Source of the DNA: Mycolicibacterium tusciae JS617
GTDB taxonomy: Bacteria > Actinomycetota > Actinomycetes > Mycobacteriales > Mycobacteriaceae
DNA: 64,000 nt
Assembly (NCBI RefSeq): GCF_000243415.2
Contig: NZ_KI912270.1
Coordinates: 5,847,837 to 5,911,836, forward strand
Direction of reading: 5' to 3'
In this document: piece after piece, positions 548-10,541 of the stretch
Numbering within the stretch: position 1 is the first letter of the stretch
Layout of the letters: each line of letters begins with the position of its first letter
The notes under the pieces: model-generated
Database searches by the model: none
The model's input: only the letters and a program-made list of their open reading frames with translations
Told to the model about the DNA's origin: nothing
Position numbers and translations under genes: made by a program

Positions 548-1150
548 ATGGCAAGAACGCAACAGCAGCGTCGTGAGGAAACCATCGCACGGCTACTCGA
601 CGCCAGCATCGACACCATCGTCGAGGTTGGGTATGCGCGGGCGTCGGCGGCGGTGATCGCCAGGCGTGCAAAGGTTTCCGACGGCGCGCTGTTCCGCCAC
701 TTCCCGACGATGGGCGACTTCATGGCGGCCACCGCCCAGGAAGTGATGCGGCGGCAACTCGGCTTGTTCTCGAAACGGGTCACCGAGATTCCGGCCGAAA
801 GGCCCGCTCTGGAGGCAGCGCTGACGGTTCTGCGTGACGTCACTGGCAACGCCACCAACACAGTGATGTACGAGTTGCTGGTCGCTGCGCGCACCGACGA
901 AAAGCTGCGGGCCACACTGAAAGACGTACTCACCGAGTACGCCGCGAACATCTATGAGACGGCCAGGTCGCTCCCCGGCGCCGACCAGTTCGATGACGAG
1001 ACCTTCGCCGCGCTGACGGCGATCCTCACCAACACCTTCGACGGTGCGGCGATCGTGCGTGCGGTGTTGCCGCAGCCGGAACTCGAGGACAAGCGGATCG
1101 AATTGCTGACGGCGCTGCTCAGCCGTGTGTCACCGGGACGCCAGGCCTAG
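548..1150 (+). CDS. TetR/AcrR family transcriptional regulator
   Basis: Encodes 200 residues, usual TetR size. The N-terminal helix-turn-helix lies at about residues 33-53, including VSDGALFRHF, the TetR recognition-helix pattern with the F-x-H-F signature. The C-terminal ligand domain is not recognisable. ATG 548 was chosen over an in-frame TTG at 539 because it directly follows the upstream stop and starts the typical charged lead-in MARTQQQRRE. The 3' end overlaps the convergent membrane-protein gene by 32 bp, so the two transcripts would be antisense at their ends. It could regulate the upstream amidohydrolase or the opposing operon; the sequence does not decide. Confidence 0.85.
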   Translation: MARTQQQRREETIARLLDASIDTIVEVGYARASAAVIARRAKVSDGALFRHFPTMGDFMAATAQEVMRRQLGLFSKRVTEIPAERPALEAALTVLRDVTGNATNTVMYELLVAARTDEKLRATLKDVLTEYAANIYETARSLPGADQFDDETFAALTAILTNTFDGAAIVRAVLPQPELEDKRIELLTALLSRVSPGRQA

Positions 1151-2375
1151 CCAGCGCGACGAGATGTACGGCAATGCCGACGAGCGGCCCACACAGCAGG
1201 GCGACCACGGTGCGGGTCTCGAGGTCCAGCGGCAACAGTAGTAGCGCCGTCGATGCGACCGTCGCCGAGACCCATCCGAGCGAATAGGCCCGGTGCAGCG
1301 CTGCCGCCACCGTCGCCGCACCGGTCAACGTCAACAACGCGATCGCGATCGCGGCCGCGGTCAGCCACGCCAGAAGTGCGCCGTCGGCGCGGTACTCGGC
1401 GCCGAACGCGCTGCGCAGCAGCCACGGGCCGAATATCCCCGCGGCCAGCACACCCAGCAGGCCAAGCGATGCCACCAGGGCGGTCGGTGCGACGAGCGCC
1501 CGCCATCGGTGTGCGCGCTGGTCGACGAAATGCGCAATCAGGTTGCCCTGCATGGCCGTCAGTGGCACCAGCAGCGGTGCGCGCGTCAGCGTCACCGCCA
1601 GGATCACCACCCCGCCGGTCGCGCCCAAATCCCCCGACGTCGCCTTGAGCAATACCGGGAAGCCCATCACCAGGACAGCACTGGCGGCCGCCGCGGTGAT
1701 TGAATGCGACGTGCCGCGCAGAAACGTCAGCGTACTGCCGGGGGTCAGTAGCCTGGCCGCAGCCCGCGTCGCAGGGGAGACGATCAACATGATCATCCAG
1801 GCCACGGACCCCGCCACCGTGGCCCACAGGTATCCGGCCAGCCCCCAACCGACCAGGAACGTTGCCACGGCGACCGTAAGCCGTATGCCGGCGTCGGTCA
1901 CCATCAACAACCCGTACTGGCTCCACCGGTCCACCCCGGCGAGCATTCCCAGCAGCGTCGCATGCAGGCAGAAGCCAGCCAGCCCGACACACAGCAGCGC
2001 CACGCTTAGCCATCGTGATTCGGCGAACACATACCCCGACCACAGCGGGGCGGTTGCAGCGATCGCGGTCGCGGCCACGATGCCGACCATCCCCGCTACC
2101 CCCATAGGCTGCGTGCGCGGCCCGGCGACGACCTCGGTGTAGCGTGCCGAACGTACCTCCCGCGTCGCCTCCTGCAGTAGGCCGGATGTCGCACCCGCTA
2201 CCAGGCCGAACGCGCCCCAGAACACCCCGAAAACCGAGAAGCCTGCCGGTTCCAGATCGCGTGCGGCCAAATAGAGCATGGCGTATACGCACAGCGCGGT
2301 CAGCACAGTCGCGGTGCCGATGCGGGTCACGCTGGCGCGGGTGGTTGGGCCGGTTTCAGGCCCGACTTCCGTCAC
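1119..2375 (-). CDS. multispanning flippase-like membrane protein (MOP/polysaccharide-exporter-like)
   Basis: 418 residues made almost wholly of hydrophobic helices (I estimate about twelve) separated by short Arg-rich loops, a pattern like MATE/MOP lipid or polysaccharide flippases. No catalytic motif is visible. The GTG start at 2375 overlaps the TGA of the M1 peptidase gene (GTGA), so it was chosen over the longer open frame that reaches into that gene. It is the third gene of a coupled operon: synthetase, peptidase, membrane protein. A role in moving the synthetase product across the membrane is inference from position only. The 3' end runs 32 bp into the convergent TetR gene. Confidence 0.7.
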   Translation of the reverse strand: MTEVGPETGPTTRASVTRIGTATVLTALCVYAMLYLAARDLEPAGFSVFGVFWGAFGLVAGATSGLLQEATREVRSARYTEVVAGPRTQPMGVAGMVGIVAATAIAATAPLWSGYVFAESRWLSVALLCVGLAGFCLHATLLGMLAGVDRWSQYGLLMVTDAGIRLTVAVATFLVGWGLAGYLWATVAGSVAWMIMLIVSPATRAAARLLTPGSTLTFLRGTSHSITAAAASAVLVMGFPVLLKATSGDLGATGGVVILAVTLTRAPLLVPLTAMQGNLIAHFVDQRAHRWRALVAPTALVASLGLLGVLAAGIFGPWLLRSAFGAEYRADGALLAWLTAAAIAIALLTLTGAATVAAALHRAYSLGWVSATVASTALLLLPLDLETRTVVALLCGPLVGIAVHLVALARPGVPVTHG

Positions 2376-3709
2376 GGGGAGACATCCGCAGCGGGCAGCT
2401 CCGTCGAGTAGAGCCACGCCGCCCACAGCGGCCTCAGGGACTCGTTCGTATAGTTCGACGCGAGCCCGGTGAAGTCGTCGGTGACCGCGGTGCTGTGCCG
2501 GTGCCGTGCCGTCCAATCACGAAGCAGCGCAAAGAAATTGTCATCACCGATGCGCCGCCGCAGGACGTGCAGCGTGAGCGCGCCCCGCTTGTACACTCGG
2601 TCGTCGAACATGTCGCGGGGTCCAGGATCTGCCAGCAACAGGTCCTGCGGCGAATTCGCCAGCCGCTGGTAGTAGTGGCGCGCCCACTCGTCGGCGGTTC
2701 GACCGCCGGAGTGCTCAGACCACAGCCACTCCGCGTAGCAGGCGAAGCCCTCATGCAGCCAGATATGCCGCCAACGCTGGGCGGTAACCGAATTGCCGAA
2801 CCACTGGTGGGCCAATTCGTGTGCGATCAGACGCTCGGAACTGCCGTGTCCATCGCAATGATTGGCGCCGAAAATCGAGATACCTTGTGCCTCAAGCGGT
2901 ATCTCCAGATCGTCGTCGGTGACCACGACGGTGTACCCGCTCGCCAGCGGGTACGGTCCGAACAGTTTGACGAACAACTTCATCATCTGAGGTTGGTCGG
3001 CGAAGTCCTTGTCGAAGTTGTGCCGCAGTCGATGCGGCAGCACCGCGTGCATATGAACGCCGTTCTTGGCCATTCGGTGCCGGTGGTAAACCCCGATCTG
3101 CAACGTCACCAGATATGTCGACGTCGGCTCTGCCTGCTCGTAGGTCCAGGTGGTCATTCCGGCTCGCGCCCGCTTCGACACCAGTTCACCGTTGGCCAGT
3201 GCGTAGTAGGAACTTTCGGTGCTGATCCGGATGGCGAAGCTCGCCTTGGCGCTGGGGTGGTCGTCGCAGGGAAACCAGGAGGCGGCGCCGTTCGGTTGAC
3301 CGGCCACCAAAGCACCCTCGGTCAACTCTTCGAAACCGACGTCACCCCAATGAGAGTGGATCGGCCGCGGAGATCCGCCGTAGCGCACGACGATCGACAT
3401 CGCCGCTCCGGCGGGCACGGCGTCCGCCAGGCCGATGTGCAGCTTGTGATGAGACGACTTGAACTGCGCGGGCCGGCTTCCGTTCACCGTCACCTTGGTC
3501 ACGTTGAGTGCATGGGACAGATCAAGGGAGAAGCTGCGCAGAGCGGCAAGTGCGACGGCGGTGATGGTCGCCGACCCGGACAGCCGATTGATCGCCACCT
3601 TGTATTCCAGGTCCAGTTCGTAGCGCGATACCCGGTAGCCGAAGTTGCCGTTGGCCGGGATGTACGGATCGATGACGGGCGGGGTCCCCTTCTTCCTACT
3701 TCGCGTCAC
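2372..3709 (-). CDS. M1-family zinc metallopeptidase
   Basis: 445 residues with the M1 zinc site HELAH (297-301) and the third ligand Glu320 in WLHEGFACYAE. The N-terminal beta-sandwich typical of M1 enzymes precedes it. The region aligned with the exopeptidase motif GAMEN reads LEAQGIS (272-278), so that motif is altered, as in many short actinobacterial M1 proteins. There is no signal peptide, which suggests a cytoplasmic enzyme. The ATG overlaps the synthetase stop by 4 bp, indicating translational coupling. From memory, the poly-epsilon-lysine-degrading enzymes of Streptomyces are also M1-type zinc aminopeptidases, so a role in trimming or degrading the synthetase product is plausible but inferred. 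Confidence 0.88.
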   Translation of the reverse strand: MTRSRKKGTPPVIDPYIPANGNFGYRVSRYELDLEYKVAINRLSGSATITAVALAALRSFSLDLSHALNVTKVTVNGSRPAQFKSSHHKLHIGLADAVPAGAAMSIVVRYGGSPRPIHSHWGDVGFEELTEGALVAGQPNGAASWFPCDDHPSAKASFAIRISTESSYYALANGELVSKRARAGMTTWTYEQAEPTSTYLVTLQIGVYHRHRMAKNGVHMHAVLPHRLRHNFDKDFADQPQMMKLFVKLFGPYPLASGYTVVVTDDDLEIPLEAQGISIFGANHCDGHGSSERLIAHELAHQWFGNSVTAQRWRHIWLHEGFACYAEWLWSEHSGGRTADEWARHYYQRLANSPQDLLLADPGPRDMFDDRVYKRGALTLHVLRRRIGDDNFFALLRDWTARHRHSTAVTDDFTGLASNYTNESLRPLWAAWLYSTELPAADVSP

Positions 3710-6700
3710 GCGGCGGCGTCTTCTGGCTTCTTTGGCGCCGGATCAGGTGTGTCGCCGCTGCGCTTCTTGCGGAACAGATTCCACGGCGCGATCGGATTGC
3801 CGAGCCAGCGGGTCGAGGGCGGTACCTGGTCGCCGCGCATCACCAGTGAGGCCGGGCCGACTGTCGCACCCGCGCCGATCCGTGCGGCGGGCAACGCGAC
3901 GCAGTGCGGTCCCAGAGTCGAACCTTCTTCCAGCACAACGGTGTCCATCCGCATGATCCGGTCGTGGAACAGGTGCGTCTGGACCACGCAGCCGCGGTTG
4001 ACGGTCGACCCTTTCCCGAGGGTGACCAGGTCGGCCTCGGGCAACCAGTACGTCTCGCACCACACGCCGCGCCCGATCGACGCGCCGAGTGCCCGCAGCC
4101 ACAGGTTCATCACCGGGGTACCGGTCGCGGCGCGCGCGAACCACGGCGCTGCAACGGTCTCGACAAAGGTGTCCGAGACTTCGTTTCGCCAAACAAACGG
4201 AGACCACAGCGGATGCTCGATGGCCCGGATACGACCCACCACAACCCATTTCGCTATCACCGCGATGCCACCCGCGATCGCGCCGGCCGTCAGCAGCACG
4301 ACACCGCCGGCCAGCGCCGAGGCCAACCAGCCGAAGCTGACGGCCAGCCCCTGCAGCGCCAGCAGCACGGCGACACCGATCGCGAATGTCACGATCAACG
4401 GGATGATCCGGCACGTTTCGACCATGGCGCGCAGGATCTTCAGCCGCAGGGAGGGATGAAACGTGCGCAGCGTGTCGGCCGCTGTCGGTTTGCGCCGCAG
4501 TCGAACCGGCGGGCTGCCGAGCCACGACGATCCCGCCTTCGCCTTGTGCGGTGCGGCGGACAGCACCGCGACCAGTCCGTCGTCGGGTACCTTCCGGCCC
4601 GGCTGGGTGATGCCTGAGTTGCCGAGGAATGCGCGCTTGCCGATGGTCGCCTTCGCGACGTGGATCCAGCCGCCACCGAGTTCATAGGACGCCACCATGG
4701 TGTCGTCGGCCAGGAACGCGCCGTCCTCGACCACCGTGAACTTCGGTGTCAGCAGTGCCGTCGAAATCTCGGTGCCGCGACCCACTTTCGCGCCGAGAAC
4801 GCGTAGCCACCACGGGGTCAGCAGGCTGGCGTAGAGGGGGAACAGGTAGTTGCGCGCCGCATCCATGAGTCGCTCGGTGGCCCAGATCTGCCAGCCGACG
4901 CGACTGCGCACCGGGTGATACCCCTCGCTCAGCCAAAGCGAAAGCACGCGCACCCCGATCACCGTCAGCACCGCGTATGTCAGCACGGCGGCCACTGTCG
5001 CCACCGGGACCCACAGTGCGGCGGGTGCGATTGCCGCCGTTACCGTGCCTGCGCCGCGGACACCCCACCCGATTACGGCGAGGCCGACACCGAGTGCCAG
5101 CAGCGGCACCGCGCCAAGGAGTACCGACGTCACTCCGTAGACAACGACCCACAGCGGTGCCCGTCGGGGCCGGTGGCCCGGCCATGGGTGGCGGGCCTTA
5201 CCGGACTTCACCGCGGGCGAGCCTTTCCAGTACTGGCCGTTTTTGACCTTGCCGGCCACCCCTGAACCCGGGGCGACGTCGGCGTTCTTGCCGACGACCG
5301 CGCCGGGCAGCAGCGTCGTGCGCGCGCCGATGGTGGCGTCGTTGCCGATGGTGATCCGGCCGACGTGGAAGCGGTCGCCGTCGATCCAATGACCAGTCAG
5401 GTCGACCTCGGGTTCGACCGAACTCCGGTGACCGAGTTTCATCATGCCGGTCACCGGCGGGGCCGAGTGCAGGTCGACTCCCTTGCCGACCTTGTTGCCG
5501 AGCGCGCGGGCGTAGTACACCAGCCATGGTGCTCCGGCGAGGTTCTCCGCACCGCTGGCCTCTGCGAGGCGTTCGGCGAACCACACCCGCAGATGCGCAG
5601 GTCCGCCGCGGCGGTAGGTGCCGGGCTCCAATCCCGACAGCAGCATCCGCGCGAACAGCACCGCGATGGCCATCCGGCCCACCGGCGTGACGAACAGCAG
5701 GAATCCCGCGATGATCCACCACCAGCCCATGGGCGCCGCCCACGGCACCAGATTCAATTCGGCGGCGACGTTGTTGGCCAGGGCCAGCCAGACCACCCAC
5801 TGCAGCGCGGTCAGCATGGACAGGGGCAGTGTCAGGGCGACCTGGACGGCTTGGGACAGCCACGGCGTCGGTGTGACGACACGCGTCTTCACCCGCGGCG
5901 GGGGTTTCAGTTCGTCGAGGTAGCCGGCCAGCGAGCCCAGCCGGGGATGGTCGTAGAGGTCGGCGACGGTCACCTGCGGATAGCGCTGACGTAGCGCGGC
6001 GACCAGCTGAGCTGCCGACAGCGATCCGCCGCCGAGCGCGAAGAAGTCGGCTTCGGGACCCTCGATCGGGGCGGCCAGGACATCGCGCCACAGGCCCGCC
6101 AGCCAGCCCATCGTGCCCACCAGATCGGGCGCATCGACGCCCTCCGGTTCGCCGGGGGGCGGCCATGGCAGCGCGTCCCGGTCGACCTTGCCCGAGGTCC
6201 GGGTCGGCAGTTCGCCCACGAGAACCAGACGCGGCACCAGTGCGGCGGGCAGCGCCTCAGCCAGCGTCGCGCGTGCCGCGGCCAGATCGAATGACGGATC
6301 GGTGCTCGCTATATAGCCGACCAGCAGCGGGGTGCCACTGGCCGTGCGCCGCACCGCGGCCGCGCCACCACTGACTCCTGGCAGATTGACGAGCGCCGAA
6401 TCAACCTCGCCCAGCTCGATCCGCCGGCCGCCGACCTTGACCTGGTCGTCGGCGCGACCGTGGAAGTAGAGGCCGTCGTTCTCGAGGCGGACCAGGTCGC
6501 CGCTGCGGTAGACGCGATCCCAACCCAAAGAAGGCATTGCGGCGAACTTCTCGGCGTCCTTGTCCGGATCCAGATAGCGGCCAAGGCCGACGCCGCCGAT
6601 GACGAGTTCACCGACCTCGCCCAACGCCACCGGCACGCCCGAGCGGTCGAGAACCGCCAGGTCCCAGCCCGGCAGTGGCAGCCCGATGCTCACCGGAGCA

Positions 6701-7635
6701 GCACCGCGAAGCCGCGCCGCGCACGCCACGACCGTCGCCTCGGTGGGTCCGTAGGTGTTCCACACCTCGCGCCCCTCCACCGCGAGCCGCTCGGCGAGCT
6801 CCGGCGGGCAGGCCTCACCGCCGAAGATCAGCAGCCGCACCGCCTCGAGTGCCTCGGCGGGCCACAACGCCGCGAGCGTCGGCACCGTCGAGACGACAGT
6901 GATGTCGCGGGACACCAGCCACGGACCCAGGTCCATGCCGCTGCGTACCAACGACCGTGGCGCAGGCACCAGGCACGCCCCGTGCCGCCAGGCCAGCCAC
7001 ATCTCCTCGCACGACGCATCGAACGCCACCGACAACCCGGCGAGCACCCGGTCGCCTGGCCCGATTGGGTTGTCCTGCAGAAACATTCGTGCTTCCGCAT
7101 CGACGAACGCGGCGGCGCTTCGGTGCGTGACCGCAACGCCCTTGGGCGTGCCGGTGGAGCCCGAGGTGAAGATGATCCATGCGTCGTCACGCCCGAGTGG
7201 AGCGGCTGCCCGCCACCCGCGCGAGGATCCCTGCGCGCGGATCAGCCCCGCCTCGGTGATGATCGCGACCACGCGAGCCTCGCTGAACACCAGGTCGGCC
7301 CGTTCCACGGGGTCGTCGGCGTCCACGGGAACGTAGGCCGCGCCGCTGGCCAGGGTTGCGAGGATCGCCACGTACAGCGCGTAGCTGCCCGATGGCATCC
7401 GGATTCCGATGCGGTCGCCGCGCCCGATGCCCCGGGCGGCCAGCCATTCGACACTGTCCTCGATGTCGGAGACCAGCTCGGCGTAGGTGAGCTGGACCTC
7501 GCCGTCGTCGATGGCAGGCGAATCCGGATGACGTCCCGCGGTGTCGTAGAAGATGTCGATGAGCGTGCGGGGTTCGGGCGCATGCCCTGAGCGCAGATAC
7601 TGCGCCGGTATCTGGTGCCCAACTTCCCCAGTCAC
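3706..7635 (-). CDS. Pls/PosA-type non-ribosomal peptide synthetase (A-T-membrane/LbH modules)
   Basis: 1309 residues. The adenylation domain spans about 25-490: A3 FTSGSTGTPKG near 156-166, A4 FDASCEEMW with the amino-acid-binding Asp206, A5 NTYGPTE, A7 YRSGD, A8 GRADDQVKVGGRRIELGEVD and A10 Lys483. A thiolation domain follows with GGGS, Ser538 being the phosphopantetheine site. The remaining 720 residues form three modules, each a membrane-helix pair followed by hexapeptide/left-handed-beta-helix repeats (about 700-810, 940-1040, 1190-1290). There is no condensation or thioesterase domain. This is the layout of poly-epsilon-lysine synthetase (Pls) and PosA. The start is GTG 7635; a TAGCTT box 7 bp upstream and no Shine-Dalgarno sequence would fit a leaderless mRNA (inference). 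Confidence 0.9.
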   Translation of the reverse strand: MTGEVGHQIPAQYLRSGHAPEPRTLIDIFYDTAGRHPDSPAIDDGEVQLTYAELVSDIEDSVEWLAARGIGRGDRIGIRMPSGSYALYVAILATLASGAAYVPVDADDPVERADLVFSEARVVAIITEAGLIRAQGSSRGWRAAAPLGRDDAWIIFTSGSTGTPKGVAVTHRSAAAFVDAEARMFLQDNPIGPGDRVLAGLSVAFDASCEEMWLAWRHGACLVPAPRSLVRSGMDLGPWLVSRDITVVSTVPTLAALWPAEALEAVRLLIFGGEACPPELAERLAVEGREVWNTYGPTEATVVACAARLRGAAPVSIGLPLPGWDLAVLDRSGVPVALGEVGELVIGGVGLGRYLDPDKDAEKFAAMPSLGWDRVYRSGDLVRLENDGLYFHGRADDQVKVGGRRIELGEVDSALVNLPGVSGGAAAVRRTASGTPLLVGYIASTDPSFDLAAARATLAEALPAALVPRLVLVGELPTRTSGKVDRDALPWPPPGEPEGVDAPDLVGTMGWLAGLWRDVLAAPIEGPEADFFALGGGSLSAAQLVAALRQRYPQVTVADLYDHPRLGSLAGYLDELKPPPRVKTRVVTPTPWLSQAVQVALTLPLSMLTALQWVVWLALANNVAAELNLVPWAAPMGWWWIIAGFLLFVTPVGRMAIAVLFARMLLSGLEPGTYRRGGPAHLRVWFAERLAEASGAENLAGAPWLVYYARALGNKVGKGVDLHSAPPVTGMMKLGHRSSVEPEVDLTGHWIDGDRFHVGRITIGNDATIGARTTLLPGAVVGKNADVAPGSGVAGKVKNGQYWKGSPAVKSGKARHPWPGHRPRRAPLWVVVYGVTSVLLGAVPLLALGVGLAVIGWGVRGAGTVTAAIAPAALWVPVATVAAVLTYAVLTVIGVRVLSLWLSEGYHPVRSRVGWQIWATERLMDAARNYLFPLYASLLTPWWLRVLGAKVGRGTEISTALLTPKFTVVEDGAFLADDTMVASYELGGGWIHVAKATIGKRAFLGNSGITQPGRKVPDDGLVAVLSAAPHKAKAGSSWLGSPPVRLRRKPTAADTLRTFHPSLRLKILRAMVETCRIIPLIVTFAIGVAVLLALQGLAVSFGWLASALAGGVVLLTAGAIAGGIAVIAKWVVVGRIRAIEHPLWSPFVWRNEVSDTFVETVAAPWFARAATGTPVMNLWLRALGASIGRGVWCETYWLPEADLVTLGKGSTVNRGCVVQTHLFHDRIMRMDTVVLEEGSTLGPHCVALPAARIGAGATVGPASLVMRGDQVPPSTRWLGNPIAPWNLFRKKRSGDTPDPAPKKPEDAAA

Positions 7636-7770
7636 GGCTACAAAGCTACTAAGGGTCCATCGCTGCGCGTACCCGCCGCACGCGATGCGTGATCACAATT
7701 GCGCGAACGGCCAACCCACGTTTGATTTCCTCGATTTCGGTCAATCGCGGTTACCTGGCAGAATCATGAG

Positions 7771-7872
7771 CGGAGGGGAGTATTCCTTCGCCGCAGCGTC
7801 GTCATCACGTCGACCTCAATCGGACGACCGGTGCTGTGGACCGCGTGCTCGTGGCGGTGGAAGAGACCTCCG
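7771..7872 (+). promoter_or_regulatory. yybP-ykoY manganese riboswitch aptamer upstream of terC
   Basis: The leader carries the family hallmarks: GGGGAGTA after the 5' P1 strand, the internal GTCGTCATCACGTC segment and GAGACCTCCG at the 3' side. P1 is formed by CGGAGG (7771-7776) with CCTCCG (7867-7872). yybP-ykoY RNAs bind Mn2+ and commonly precede terC/mntP-type metal exporters, matching the gene 49 bp downstream. Assigned by eye against the remembered family consensus. Confidence 0.87.
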
Positions 7873-7920
7873 GCGTTTTTGGGGCTGCATTCGCGGCTCG
7901 CCGCGACGACCGGAGGTTTT
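7864..7920 (+). promoter_or_regulatory. expression platform: terC Shine-Dalgarno complementary to the riboswitch P1 strand
   Basis: ACCTCCGG (7866-7873), which holds the 3' P1 strand, is perfectly complementary to CCGGAGGT (7910-7917), the terC ribosome-binding site 4 nt before its GTG. P1 pairing and SD sequestration are therefore mutually exclusive. Mn-bound RNA should free the SD and metal-free RNA should mask it, i.e. translational ON control (inferred from complementarity). Confidence 0.7.
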
Positions 7921-8967
7921 GTGAACGTTTCCCAGCTCGAGTGGATCATCACGGTGGGCGTGACAATCGCCGTGCTGCTGTTCGACGTCGTGGTGATCGG
8001 GCGACGACCGCACGAACCGTCCAAGCGTGAAACCGGGACGTACCTGACGATCTACATCGGACTCGCGGTGGCGTTCGGGTTGTGGGTGTGGTTCTTCCAC
8101 GGCGGCCAGTTCGGGCTGGAGTTCTTCGCCGGCTGGCTCACCGAGTACAGCCTGTCCGTGGACAACCTGTTCATCTTCCTGATCATCATGGCCAGCTTCA
8201 ACGTGCCGAAGAAGTATCAGCAGCAGGCGCTGCTGGTGGGCATCATTCTCGCGTTGATATTCCGCGCCATCTTCATCGCGCTCGGCGCGGTGGCGATCAA
8301 CCAGTTCTCCTGGATCTTCTACGCCTTCGGCGCGTTCCTGGTCTACACCGCCATCAACCTCGTCCGCGACACCGACCACGACGACGACGCCGACAACTTC
8401 GTGGTGCGATTCGCACGCAACCACCTGAGTCTCACTGACAAGTGGGAGGGCGGCCTCAAGCTGTGGGTGAAGGAGAACGGCAAGCGGCTGATGACGCCGA
8501 TGTTCCTCGTGATCGTCGCGCTCGGCACCACCGATCTGCTCTTCGCGCTGGACTCGATCCCCGCGATCTACGGCCTGACCCGGGAGCCGTACCTGGTGTT
8601 CACGGCGAACGTGTTCGCATTGATGGGACTGCGTCAGCTCTACTTCCTGCTCGGCGACCTGTTGAGGCGACTGGTTTACCTGTCGCAGGGGCTGGCCCTC
8701 ATTCTGGCGTTCATCGGCGTGAAGCTGATCTTGCACGCGCTGCACGAAAACGAGCTGCCGTTCATCAACGGCGGCGAGCATGTGCCGGTGCCGGAGATCC
8801 CGACGCTGGCCAGCCTCGGCGTGATCGTCGTGACGCTGCTCATCACCACTGCAGCCAGCCTGTACAAGACGCGCGTGCACGACGTGAAGAACGAGAAGAA
8901 CGGCGAGAACGGCGAGAACGGTAAGGATTCGGCGCCGGATCCCGAGCAGTCCTTGGATTCGCGCTGA
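7921..8967 (+). CDS. terC: TerC family membrane protein, probable Mn2+ exporter
   Basis: 348 residues, about nine transmembrane helices. The TerC acidic membrane motifs are present: SVDNLFIF (79-86) and ALDSIPAIYG (209-218). A cytoplasmic loop DTDHDDDADN (150-159) is very acidic and could bind metal. The C-terminus is a hydrophilic Asn/Gly/Glu-rich tail. GTG 7921 was chosen because a strong CGGAGG lies 4 nt upstream and the longer reading frame runs through the riboswitch. TerC proteins protect cells or load secreted enzymes by exporting manganese. Control by the Mn riboswitch upstream supports that function here. Confidence 0.92.
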   Translation: MNVSQLEWIITVGVTIAVLLFDVVVIGRRPHEPSKRETGTYLTIYIGLAVAFGLWVWFFHGGQFGLEFFAGWLTEYSLSVDNLFIFLIIMASFNVPKKYQQQALLVGIILALIFRAIFIALGAVAINQFSWIFYAFGAFLVYTAINLVRDTDHDDDADNFVVRFARNHLSLTDKWEGGLKLWVKENGKRLMTPMFLVIVALGTTDLLFALDSIPAIYGLTREPYLVFTANVFALMGLRQLYFLLGDLLRRLVYLSQGLALILAFIGVKLILHALHENELPFINGGEHVPVPEIPTLASLGVIVVTLLITTAASLYKTRVHDVKNEKNGENGENGKDSAPDPEQSLDSR

Positions 8968-9012
8968 TCGTAAGGGTCGACGGCGACCGCTGAAGGGCCT
9001 ACCGTTGCCGCC

Positions 9013-9408
9013 GTGCGGCTATTCGTGGCAGACGACGCAGGTGGGCACTGGAGCGAGTTGACCGACGGTGCCGATCCGGCCGTGCGGGTGGTCGCGGTCG
9101 ATCTCGCACAGGCGCGACGGATCCGAGCCCGAATGCGGAGCGATTCCGAGCATGTCGCCGTCATCCTGGACGTGACTGTGGCGGTGGCGGCCGACTTCCG
9201 TTCGGCGCGAAGGGAACTCGAATCGATCGACGGCGTGCGCTACGCGGGGACGGTCGACGGACTCGCCGGGTTGATCGCCGATATCGAAGCCGCGGGCGTG
9301 GCCGACGGTGTCACGCTGGTCGCGGCGTCACCACGGCAGGATCTGGCCGCCGTGGGTCTTGACGTGCTCCACTGGCTGGCGCTCCGGGATCAGGCCAAAG
9401 CCTCGTAG
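9013..9408 (+). CDS. hypothetical protein
   Basis: 131 residues from GTG 9013; soluble, no signal peptide or membrane helix. Content is Ala/Asp/Val/Arg-rich with alternating beta and helix patterns, compatible with a small alpha/beta fold, but I recognise no family. Third-position GC is high and in keeping with real mycobacterial genes. The 3' end overlaps the convergent serine hydrolase gene by 19 bp. It lies 45 bp after terC and could be in the same transcript. Function unknown. Confidence 0.6.
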   Translation: MRLFVADDAGGHWSELTDGADPAVRVVAVDLAQARRIRARMRSDSEHVAVILDVTVAVAADFRSARRELESIDGVRYAGTVDGLAGLIADIEAAGVADGVTLVAASPRQDLAAVGLDVLHWLALRDQAKAS

Positions 9409-10541
9409 AAGAGGCGAGCGTAGCGGTTGGTGCGATCCGTGCCGACGGTGCCGGGCCCCATCCTGTTCATCACGTAGGCGAAAGTGGCCCGATGTTCGGG
9501 GTTCATTACGATCGCCGAACCTCCCCAACCGCCCCACCAGCAGATCTTGCCCTCCGGAACGGCGGGAACGCTTGCCGGAGTGGGCAATCCGAAGCCGATA
9601 CCAAACCTCAGCGGGGTGAAGAGCACCTGATCGACGCCGTTGGATTGCTCCTGGAAGATCAGGTCAATGGTTGCTGGGCTGAGCACCTGAACGCCGTTCG
9701 CCTTTCCGCCCAACGAGATTGGCGACAGTGCACGAGCCAGTGCCCGGGCATTGCCGTGCCCGTTCGCGCCACCGATATCCGCACGCCGCCACGCGGTGGT
9801 CTCGGCGATCGATGCGAAGTCCGGGGCGGCCCGAAACGCCGCGAACGTTCTCAACATCGGGTGATCGGCGGGCAACGCGTCGTACGGCAGGTCGAGAGGC
9901 GGCGGCGGAATCAGCTCGGCGATGCGGTGCTCGTCCTCCGCGCGGGCGCCGATCTGGACGTCGGCGCCCAGGGGAGCGGCGATCTCGTCGTGAACGAACG
10001 CCTTGAGCGTTTTGCCAGTGATCCTGCGGATGACCTCGCCGATCAGATGGCCGTAGTTGATCGCGTGGTATCCCGACGCTGTGCCGGGCTCCCACCACGG
10101 CGCCTGGCGTGCGAGTTGGCTCGTCGCCTTCTCCCAGTCGTAGACATCGTCGACGGTGAACGGCATATCCCATCCCGACACCCCCGACGTATGGGCCAGG
10201 AGGTGGCGCACCTCGATGTCCCCCTTGCCGTTCTCGGCGAATTCCGGCCAGTACTCGGCGACGGGAGCGAAGGGATCGAGTAGGCCGCGATCGACGAGCA
10301 TCAACGCCGAGAGCGCGGTGAGCGTCTTTGTGCATGACCAGAAGTTGACGATGGTGTTCTCGGACCACGGGACTGTCTTGGCGCGGTCCGCGTGCCCGCC
10401 CCATATGTCGACCACATACTCTCCGTCGATGTCGACGGCGATCGATGCGCCGAGTTCCTCACCGCTGGTTATCTCGTCGGCGAGCGCCTCGGCCACCTTG
10501 TCGAACCGCGGATCGCAGTGTCCCTGCAGTACGTCATGCAT
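9390..10541 (-). CDS. serine hydrolase, beta-lactamase/esterase (class C-like) family
   Basis: 383 residues. The SxxK nucleophile motif is SCTK in NFWSCTKTLTAL (about residue 68). The second motif is in the YHAINYGHLIGEV segment, where Tyr acts as general base in EstB/LipL-type esterases. The third motif is replaced by a Gly/Trp-rich WWGGWGGSA stretch rather than KTG. No signal peptide. These enzymes are penicillin-binding-protein-fold esterases or peptidases acting on small esters or lactams; the substrate is not predictable. ATG 10541 was chosen because family homology begins at MHDVLQGHCDPRF and the upstream 43 codons look non-coding. Confidence 0.85.
   Translation of the reverse strand: MHDVLQGHCDPRFDKVAEALADEITSGEELGASIAVDIDGEYVVDIWGGHADRAKTVPWSENTIVNFWSCTKTLTALSALMLVDRGLLDPFAPVAEYWPEFAENGKGDIEVRHLLAHTSGVSGWDMPFTVDDVYDWEKATSQLARQAPWWEPGTASGYHAINYGHLIGEVIRRITGKTLKAFVHDEIAAPLGADVQIGARAEDEHRIAELIPPPPLDLPYDALPADHPMLRTFAAFRAAPDFASIAETTAWRRADIGGANGHGNARALARALSPISLGGKANGVQVLSPATIDLIFQEQSNGVDQVLFTPLRFGIGFGLPTPASVPAVPEGKICWWGGWGGSAIVMNPEHRATFAYVMNRMGPGTVGTDRTNRYARLFYEALA

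Follow-up and report, generated by a model that had tools for sequence, protein, structure and literature searches.

A mycobacterial gene pair resembling known epsilon-poly-L-lysine synthetase-peptidase systems, followed by a widespread MOP-type transporter gene

Three overlapping genes in the window

The window, the 64,000-nucleotide stretch of Mycolicibacterium tusciae JS617 DNA analyzed here, contains three minus-strand open reading frames, at 3706-7635, 2372-3709 and 1119-2375. The initial annotation described three genes joined by two 4-bp overlaps, and both overlaps are real and lie at the coordinates given below. The first had been read as ATGA, while the sequence there is GTGA, a misreading without consequence; the GTGA of the second is borne out by the sequence. 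The three genes are presumably co-transcribed. An Rfam search of the window at gathering thresholds gave no matches. The features are as follows.

3706..7635, minus strand: pls, epsilon-poly-L-lysine synthetase homologue, 1309 aa, A-T-membrane polymerisation domain (TIGR02353; Pfam AMP-binding, PP-binding, Hexapep)
6151..7602, minus strand: adenylation (A) domain, residues 12-495, pocket DAESIGTVV (7wew match)
5917..6105, minus strand: thiolation (T) domain, residues 511-573, GGGS with Ser538 (PF00550, 8.9e-14; motif)
3790..5847, minus strand: C-terminal domain, residues 597-1282, three modules of paired TM helices and beta-helix-like segments (TIGR02353, AF2, hydropathy)
3706..3709, minus strand: pls-M1 junction, 4-bp stop/start overlap, GTGA
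2372..3709, minus strand: M1-family metallopeptidase, 445 aa, PldII-like by position and coupling (PF01433, 6.6e-27; PF17900, 7.9e-15)
2807..2821, minus strand: HELAH motif, residues 297-301, third ligand E320 (HEXXH-X18-E)
2372..2375, minus strand: M1-MOP junction, 4-bp stop/start overlap, GTGA
1119..2375, minus strand: MOP-superfamily flippase-like protein, 418 aa, presumed Rv3630 orthologue (AF2, Foldseek; gene content)

By sequence, the first gene is an epsilon-poly-L-lysine synthetase (Pls) homologue. The initial annotation gave it the architecture of a poly-epsilon-lysine synthetase, and this is supported by a TIGR02353 score of 740.1 bits (cut-off 423.1; match spanning residues 597-1282) and by the A domain, which is 64.6% identical over 486 aligned positions to the solved Pls A domain 7wew. 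Pfam detected only AMP-binding, PP-binding and Hexapep, with neither a condensation nor a thioesterase domain. In an AlphaFold2 (AF2) model spanning residues 580-1309 (pTM 0.79; mean pLDDT 73, with some weak stretches), three modules are seen, each with paired long helices followed by short-strand turns. Pfam, TIGR02353 and AF2 agree with the annotated order of A and T domains followed by three membrane/beta-helix modules. The six-TM/three-beta-helix layout of Pls fits the model, given its confidence; by hydropathy, the C-terminal domain has seven windows, one more than this layout calls for, and the A domain has one. The best Foldseek matches of the C-terminal model were serine acetyltransferases (E 7.7e-04), with low TM-scores.

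The peptidase gene is linked to pls

The second gene encodes an M1 peptidase whose best matches among solved structures are 6a8z/6iff. We take the Streptomyces poly-lysine degrading enzymes, PldII among them, to be M1 zinc peptidases. In streptomycete-like loci, the gene beside pls also encodes an M1 protein, and the pls-linked M1 proteins of loci L126-L128 are 51-52% identical to that of the window. Among the matches listed for the M1 of L126 are M1 proteins with Streptomyces names at 93% identity, and none of the 120 matches listed in that search is named PldII. The passages seen on PldII do not describe it as an M1 enzyme, and it is position and coupling that make gene 2 PldII-like. PldII is reported to be on the outer side of the membrane (PMC9223678); a hydropathy scan of the window M1 found no hydrophobic segment.

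Of the 80 loci retained from a Pls search, 79 have M1 next after pls on the same strand, and the sole miss (L016) stops at a contig edge. This linkage is more than chance. Within the genus (148 genomes), M1 was present in 106/106 genomes with pls and in 1/42 without it, the exception (G267) being a genome that is 63% complete. The family counts, compared by eye, were 137/137 and 1/14. At the level of the class, M1 lies within about 1 kb of pls in 26 of 30 pls genomes (25 judged by eye and one, G303, from a separate analysis). Three pls genomes of the class (G309, G338 and G368) had no M1 at 1e-80; G309 (L135) has the same pocket residues as the window. An M1 relative of 35-43% identity was found by eye in 20 of the 118 pls-less class genomes. 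A lack of conserved linkage, named at the outset as evidence against the grouping, was thus not what we found for genes 1 and 2.

The two genes are not always adjacent. Judged by eye, M1 is away from pls in all nine pls-bearing genomes of one genus of the family (g3), on a different contig in four genomes of another (g9), and separated from it by 1.0-9.5 kb in no fewer than 14 further family genomes. At the other extreme, pls and M1 are fused in one 1748-aa frame in G037 (L084). A second apparent fusion, in G007 (L085), was rejected because its coordinates show separate frames: pls overlaps the first 30 bp or so of M1 but is read in a different frame, and only G037 is counted. The best tree built from 101 MOP proteins requires a minimum of nine changes in the presence of pls, of which supported branches force five. 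M1 changes the same way as pls in an average of 4.5 of five independent pairs, although five pairs are too few for significance and the co-loss of neighbors can be a single deletion. As for the proposal of a dedicated trimming enzyme, the partner peptidase is conserved alongside pls as in published pairs, and epsilon-poly-L-lysine (epsilon-PL) is its likely substrate by inference.

Comparison with known systems

A translationally coupled pair of pls and pldII, the gene of the type II degrading enzyme, has been described in S. albulus (PMC9223678). The window resembles it in synthetase architecture and in the adjacent coupled peptidase gene (PMC9223678), and its pocket residues are those of the solved synthase A domain 7wew. 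The window differs in being mycobacterial, in having a MOP gene next in the run and in the missing hydrophobic segment of its M1. A pls-peptidase operon has also been described in Corynebacterium (PMC8117764). That of C. variabile has Pls and a peptidase like the window but, unlike the window, its description in the Results text makes no mention of a MOP gene (PMC8117764). The Pls of Nocardia (nfa3790 and relatives) is a poly-lysine synthetase by prediction (PMC4035055); the Nocardia loci examined here have M1 as in the window, but no MOP match.

Production of epsilon-PL by the C. variabile pls was proven on expression in S. coelicolor, only from an S. albulus promoter, and native C. variabile made no detectable epsilon-PL in the culture tested (PMC8117764). 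The latter result favors a possible, though rather unlikely, explanation that the mycobacterial cassette is silent under most conditions or that its polymer forms part of the envelope and is not secreted as an antimicrobial. The presence of pls in 106 of 148 surveyed genus genomes points the same way, as this would be wider than expected of a sporadic antibiotic cluster.

Among the matches listed from the open-licence PMC literature, there was no report of mycobacterial poly-lysine. The passages seen of two papers mention epsilon-PL only for Streptomyces and Kitasatospora (PMC12113857, PMC10049677), NAPAA clusters are reported in other genera (PMC9964534), and the passages seen of a further source mention Pls/PosA-type domains apart from mycobacterial clusters and do not mention poly-lysine in mycobacteria (PMC13291983). 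The window locus looks like a widespread mycobacterial member of an already known type of pls-peptidase system.

The third gene does not follow pls

Neither Pfam, searched with the full-length protein, nor NCBIfam, searched with a 409-aa piece (1147-2375), matched gene 3. Its AF2 model (mean pLDDT 88.6) has a MATE/WzxE/MurJ fold, with Foldseek matches to MATE (E 6.6e-07) and WzxE (TM to target up to 0.70), and by this predicted fold the protein would belong to the MOP superfamily. M. tuberculosis has Rv3630 with Rv3631 (PpgS) and Rv3632, and the window MOP is presumably the Rv3630 orthologue. In relatives, the MOP gene is followed by GT2 (PF00535) and DUF2304 (PF10066) genes with an epimerase nearby, which resembles the M. 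tuberculosis locus. The window's genome differs in having no ppgS (best match 26%); ppgS is missing at 1e-40 in 40 of the 148 genus genomes, this one included. In one published list, Rv3632, not Rv3630, is the putative flippase, and Rv3630, matched to MATE structures, is a putative drug antiporter (PMC8562490).

MOP occurs in 144 of the 148 genus genomes. By gene set, 68 genomes hold pls, MOP and ppgS, 38 MOP and ppgS, 37 pls and MOP, and one MOP alone; four are without MOP. The initial annotation saw in gene 3 a membrane protein for dedicated export, so that the three genes would form one make-trim-export operon with MOP exporting poly-lysine or a lipid-linked form of it. We consider this improbable. 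The 4-bp M1-MOP overlap in the window is in its favor, as are the M1-MOP gap of less than 200 bp in 83 of the 106 genus genomes holding both and the adjacency of M1 and MOP in several other genera, including g3 genomes with pls elsewhere (L094, L095). However, MOP is kept by 39 of the 42 pls-less genomes of the genus and, by eye, by 9 of 14 in the family, while 97 of the 137 pls-bearing family genomes gave no MOP match at 1e-20 (by eye). Moreover, MOP lies less than 200 bp from ppgS in 95 of the 106 genus genomes holding both, and in 22 of the 23 genomes where M1 and MOP are apart. Since MOP fails to track pls and sits near ppgS, the role of dedicated exporter is unsupported and was set aside. 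The co-occurrence survey suggested with the initial annotation divides the locus: pls and M1 are linked and co-present, and MOP is linked to them but does not follow pls in its distribution. Gene 3 is probably outside the poly-lysine unit and has another job. Read from its neighbors, the cargo of the ppgS-locus transporter may be a polyprenyl-phosphate sugar.

Substrate pocket and polymer

The nine A-domain pocket residues, DAESIGTVV, are identical in the window and 7wew. With a fixed motif pattern, the pocket was legible in 95 of 124 loci, and all 95, the window's own (L001) included, have these residues. The pocket discriminates, because two synthetases (L133 and L134, about 32% identical) read DFEY(I/L)GTVT. 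Since the window's residues equal those of the 7wew Pls, the polymer is most likely epsilon-poly-L-lysine, and this homology lends support to the annotated prediction of a cationic homopoly(amino acid).

PosA, the delta-poly-L-ornithine synthetase of Acinetobacter baumannii, is a three-part synthetase like that of the window, and a published model of its C-terminal domain has three beta-helices (PMC10522769). Its Met218 is Ala in S. albulus Pls, and the terminal domains are 20% identical (PMC10522769). The window has Ala at this position (the second pocket residue and the sole Ala of the nine), not Met, where the correspondence is the paper's placement of the S. albulus Ala and PosA is placed by description (PMC10522769). 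Polymerisation of another basic amino acid (ornithine, diaminobutyrate or beta-lysine) instead of L-lysine is very unlikely: the pocket residues come from alignment, and the products of relatives include poly-ornithine, poly-diaminobutyrate and poly-diaminopropionate (PMC10522769, PMC8117764), but all nine residues match 7wew, and epsilon-PL is the product of the C. variabile Pls, which shares 51% identity with the Streptomyces enzyme (PMC8117764).

Proposed function and significance

The reading that we prefer, and hold to be likely, is that of an epsilon-poly-L-lysine unit made up of genes 1 and 2, with gene 3 as a widespread MOP-type transporter of the Rv3630 type, placed there by old gene order. 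The A domain would activate L-lysine with ATP and load it onto Ser538 in the T domain. Lysines would then be linked by the three-module membrane domain, the epsilon-amine of each to the carboxyl of its neighbor, and chains of mixed length may exit through or alongside this domain. Coupled to pls through the overlap, the M1 peptidase would trim or destroy the polymer for self-protection or recycling. The MOP gene after M1 would be a remnant of gene order, not a poly-lysine exporter; in many relatives it is found with ppgS and DUF2304. The direct basis is gene content, domains, pocket identity, linkage, co-occurrence and predicted folds, from which we infer the product, each chemical step, the substrates of the peptidase and the transporter, and co-transcription.

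At least one of pls and ppgS is present in 143 of the 144 MOP-bearing genus genomes, and across the genus pls and ppgS show a negative association (Fisher p 0.0004). Mutual exclusion was not upheld on the MOP-protein tree, where 2.1 of five independent pairs were opposite, which is not significant. Because of this, exclusion is kept only within a highly speculative scheme, to which we give very little credence, in which poly-lysine (pls) and lipid-carried galactosamine (ppgS) are two routes to a cationic envelope from one ancestral locus with a shared MOP flippase. Under such a scheme, poly-lysine would therefore be an envelope component of most non-tuberculous mycobacteria and not a secreted antibiotic.

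The distribution of MOP suggests a placement for the Rv3630-type transporter that can be tested, and cautions against taking a neighboring flippase for a poly-lysine exporter. Should the epsilon-poly-L-lysine unit function as predicted, an antimicrobial lysine polymer could be made by about 7 in 10 of the species whose genomes were surveyed in the genus (106/148). If true, this could matter for how these bacteria compete in soil and water, for the charge of their envelope and for how well they tolerate cationic peptides.

Gene order and junctions

The initial annotation described three minus-strand genes joined by two 4-bp overlaps, and the coordinates of the open reading frames (ORFs) bore this out. 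The window holds the following features:

7635-3706, minus strand: gene 1 (pls), ORF for the Pls synthetase
3709-2372, minus strand: gene 2 (M1), ORF for the M1 peptidase
2375-1119, minus strand: gene 3 (MOP), ORF for the MOP-superfamily flippase-like protein
539-1150: TetR gene, convergent with gene 3 and overlapping its end by 32 bp (1119-1150)
Upstream of gene 1: TerC gene, divergent from gene 1

The 4-bp overlap at the first junction stood; the ATGA first read there did not, the sequence being GTGA at both junctions. The overlaps suggest tight coupling of the three genes. In themselves they are nothing unusual, because 4-bp stop/start overlaps are frequent among actinobacteria. A perfect 8-bp inverted repeat, ACCTCCGG (7866-7873) and CCGGAGGT (7910-7917), lies directly before a candidate start codon for TerC (7921). 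An Rfam scan of the whole window gave no matches, this repeat (7866-7917) included.

Synthetase and predicted monomer

Gene 1 scored 740 bits against the NCBIfam Pls/PosA family TIGR02353 (cut-off 423), and its only Pfam domains were AMP-binding, PP-binding and hexapeptide. The nearest solved structure by sequence was 7wew, labelled epsilon-poly-L-lysine synthase (E 1.3e-188; 64.6% identity over 486 aligned positions), which we take to be the S. albulus enzyme. Pocket residues of the adenylation (A) domain were read at positions anchored on a GrsA stretch, using a fixed motif pattern over 124 loci, some without pls; the pattern may miss odd sequences. The nine residues read DAESIGTVV in the window; 7wew and all 95 readable loci, the window's own among them, agreed. 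As a control, two synthetases of about 32% identity, read with a looser pattern, gave DFEYIGTVT and DFEYLGTVT. Since the window A domain equals 7wew at all nine pocket residues, lysine is the predicted monomer. PosA, the delta-poly-L-ornithine synthetase of Acinetobacter baumannii, has Met218 at the position of an alanine in S. albulus Pls (PMC10522769, in part).

In the predicted model of the C-terminal part of gene 1 (mean pLDDT 73, with some weak stretches), paired helices and turns of short strands recur in three modules, in agreement with the modelling of PosA in the available part of PMC10522769. Hydropathy gave seven windows there, not six. Foldseek matched the model weakly to hexapeptide acetyltransferases (E 7.7e-04, TM to target about 0.3). 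The two divergent control synthetases (L133 and L134, from G420 and G303) have an M1 gene of 37-38% identity about 1 kb downstream. Second, lower-scoring TIGR02353 copies were seen in some family genomes.

Linkage of pls and M1

Gene 2 has both Pfam parts of peptidase M1 and the motif HELAH-X18-E, and its closest solved chains, 6a8z and 6iff, are putative zinc metalloproteases. In S. albulus, the epsilon-poly-L-lysine (epsilon-PL)-degrading enzyme gene pldII is described as translationally coupled to the adjoining pls, and PldII as the chief epsilon-PL degrader, sited outside the membrane (PMC9223678, in part), whereas a hydropathy scan found no membrane segment in the gene 2 product. The available part of that paper does not state that PldII is an M1 enzyme. 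The gene adjoining pls in three streptomycete-like loci (L126-L128) was M1, and the L126 protein shares 93% identity with M1 proteins attributed to Streptomyces.

Survey samples were species genomes or the best-scoring matches of longer lists. The E-value cut-off for pls was 1e-50 in genus, family and class. For M1 it was 1e-50 in the genus and the family and 1e-80 in the class, for MOP 1e-50 in the genus and 1e-20 in the family, and for ppgS (the Rv3631-type, PpgS, gene) 1e-40. The Pls locus search covered the best 80 of at least 591 loci, biased to near relatives and including some close strains or metagenome bins. M1 lay downstream of pls on the same strand in 79 of these 80, the exception being cut off by the end of its contig. 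Projected gaps were below 300 bp in 74 loci and 586-2106 bp in five. In one locus (L084, G037; 5078-10324) pls and M1 form one 1748-aa frame, an apparent gene fusion. A locus labelled as a Bifidobacterium breve MAG (L031) has a mycobacterium-like pls-M1-MOP arrangement with pls at 80% identity, and is probably a mislabelled bin.

Among 148 genus genomes, pls was found in 106 and M1 in 107: both in 106, neither in 41, and M1 without pls in one (63% complete). Family genomes were compared by eye. There, pls was present in 137 of 151, M1 in all 137 of these and in one (G026) of the 14 lacking pls. The two genes are not always adjacent: M1 lay away from pls in 9/9 pls-bearing genomes of g3, a genus with small genomes; four g9 genomes have it on a different contig, and at least 14 further genomes have it at a distance of 1.0-9.5 kb. 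In the class, pls occurred in 30 of 148 genomes, with M1 within about 1 kb in 26 (by eye; G303 from its fetched locus). Three pls-bearing class genomes (G309, G338, G368) gave no M1 match at 1e-80; the G309 synthetase (L135) has the DAESIGTVV pocket, and the 8.7 kb fetched is without M1. M1 relatives of 35-43% identity were seen by eye in 20 of the 118 class genomes without pls; co-occurrence with pls is therefore confined to the closer M1 group that is linked to it.

A tree was built from 101 MOP proteins (100 genus genomes chosen to cover label classes, plus the window), with 35 of 98 inner branches supported and several long branches flagged. On it, pls required at least nine changes, five of them forced by supported branches. 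M1 went in the same direction as pls in an average of 4.5 of five independent pairs, too few for significance.

Distribution and possible role of gene 3

The conserved linkage that the initial annotation set as a check held for genes 1 and 2 (79/80 loci; M1 present in 106/106 genus genomes with pls); gene 3 adjoins M1 (within 200 bp) in 83 of the 106 genus genomes holding both but is also present without pls. MOP was found in 144 of 148 genus genomes. It accompanied pls and ppgS in 68, pls without ppgS in 37 (the window among them) and ppgS without pls in 38, and stood alone in one; pls with ppgS but no MOP occurred once, ppgS alone once, and none of the three in two genomes, both below 90% complete. 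In the MOP-alone genome (L125), an open MOP frame adjoins an epimerase, and the 11-kb stretch has no ppgS, DUF2304, M1 or pls match. Of the 106 genomes with both MOP and ppgS, 95 have the two within 200 bp of each other, seven more within 2.8 kb and four on other contigs. In 22 of the 23 genomes with M1 and MOP apart, MOP was within 200 bp of ppgS. Family genomes, by eye, had MOP in 49 of 151 (40/137 with pls, 9/14 without). M1 and MOP are still adjacent in two g3 loci (L094, L095) with pls elsewhere, which counts against treating gene 3 as cleanly separate from the pair. One genome (G206, C1:2504724-2508254) has extra MOP matches (66% identity; 71% over a part) on the same contig as its ppgS-linked copy and far from it, an apparent paralogue.

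Gene 3 had no Pfam match, and a 409-aa piece had no NCBIfam match. By Foldseek, its predicted model (mean pLDDT 88.6, pTM 0.87) resembles MurJ, MATE transporters (E 6.6e-07 for one of them) and WzxE (TM to target as high as 0.70). Neighbours of MOP in the examined loci were a GT2 gene (PF00535), a DUF2304 gene (PF10066) and, nearby, an epimerase. With these neighbours, and with Rv3630 presumably lying beside Rv3631/Rv3632 in M. tuberculosis, gene 3 may be of the Rv3630 type. The window's genome lacks ppgS (best match 26% identity). The ppgS and DUF2304 genes present at the equivalent site in L004 are missing beside the window's TetR and MOP ends.

Synthesis of polyprenyl-phospho-GalNAc for arabinogalactan galactosamine involves Rv3631 (PpgS) and Rv3632 in M. 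tuberculosis, and the nearby Rv3634c is a UDP-GalNAc 4-epimerase (PMC3485146, PMC5389812, both in part). The available part of PMC8562490 matches Rv3630 to MATE structures and lists it as a putative drug antiporter; Rv3632, not Rv3630, is its putative flippase.

Known and new

Streptomyces and Corynebacterium are already known to carry the make-and-degrade pair. The synthetase has been predicted in Nocardia (PMC4035055, 2014, in part), and NCBIfam names the family. C. variabile Pls expressed in S. coelicolor gave epsilon-PL of 26-35 residues, and the native strain gave none (PMC8117764, in part). No report of mycobacterial poly-lysine was found in the open-licence literature. What is new is the measured spread of the pls-M1 pair across mycobacteria and the setting apart of gene 3 from that pair.
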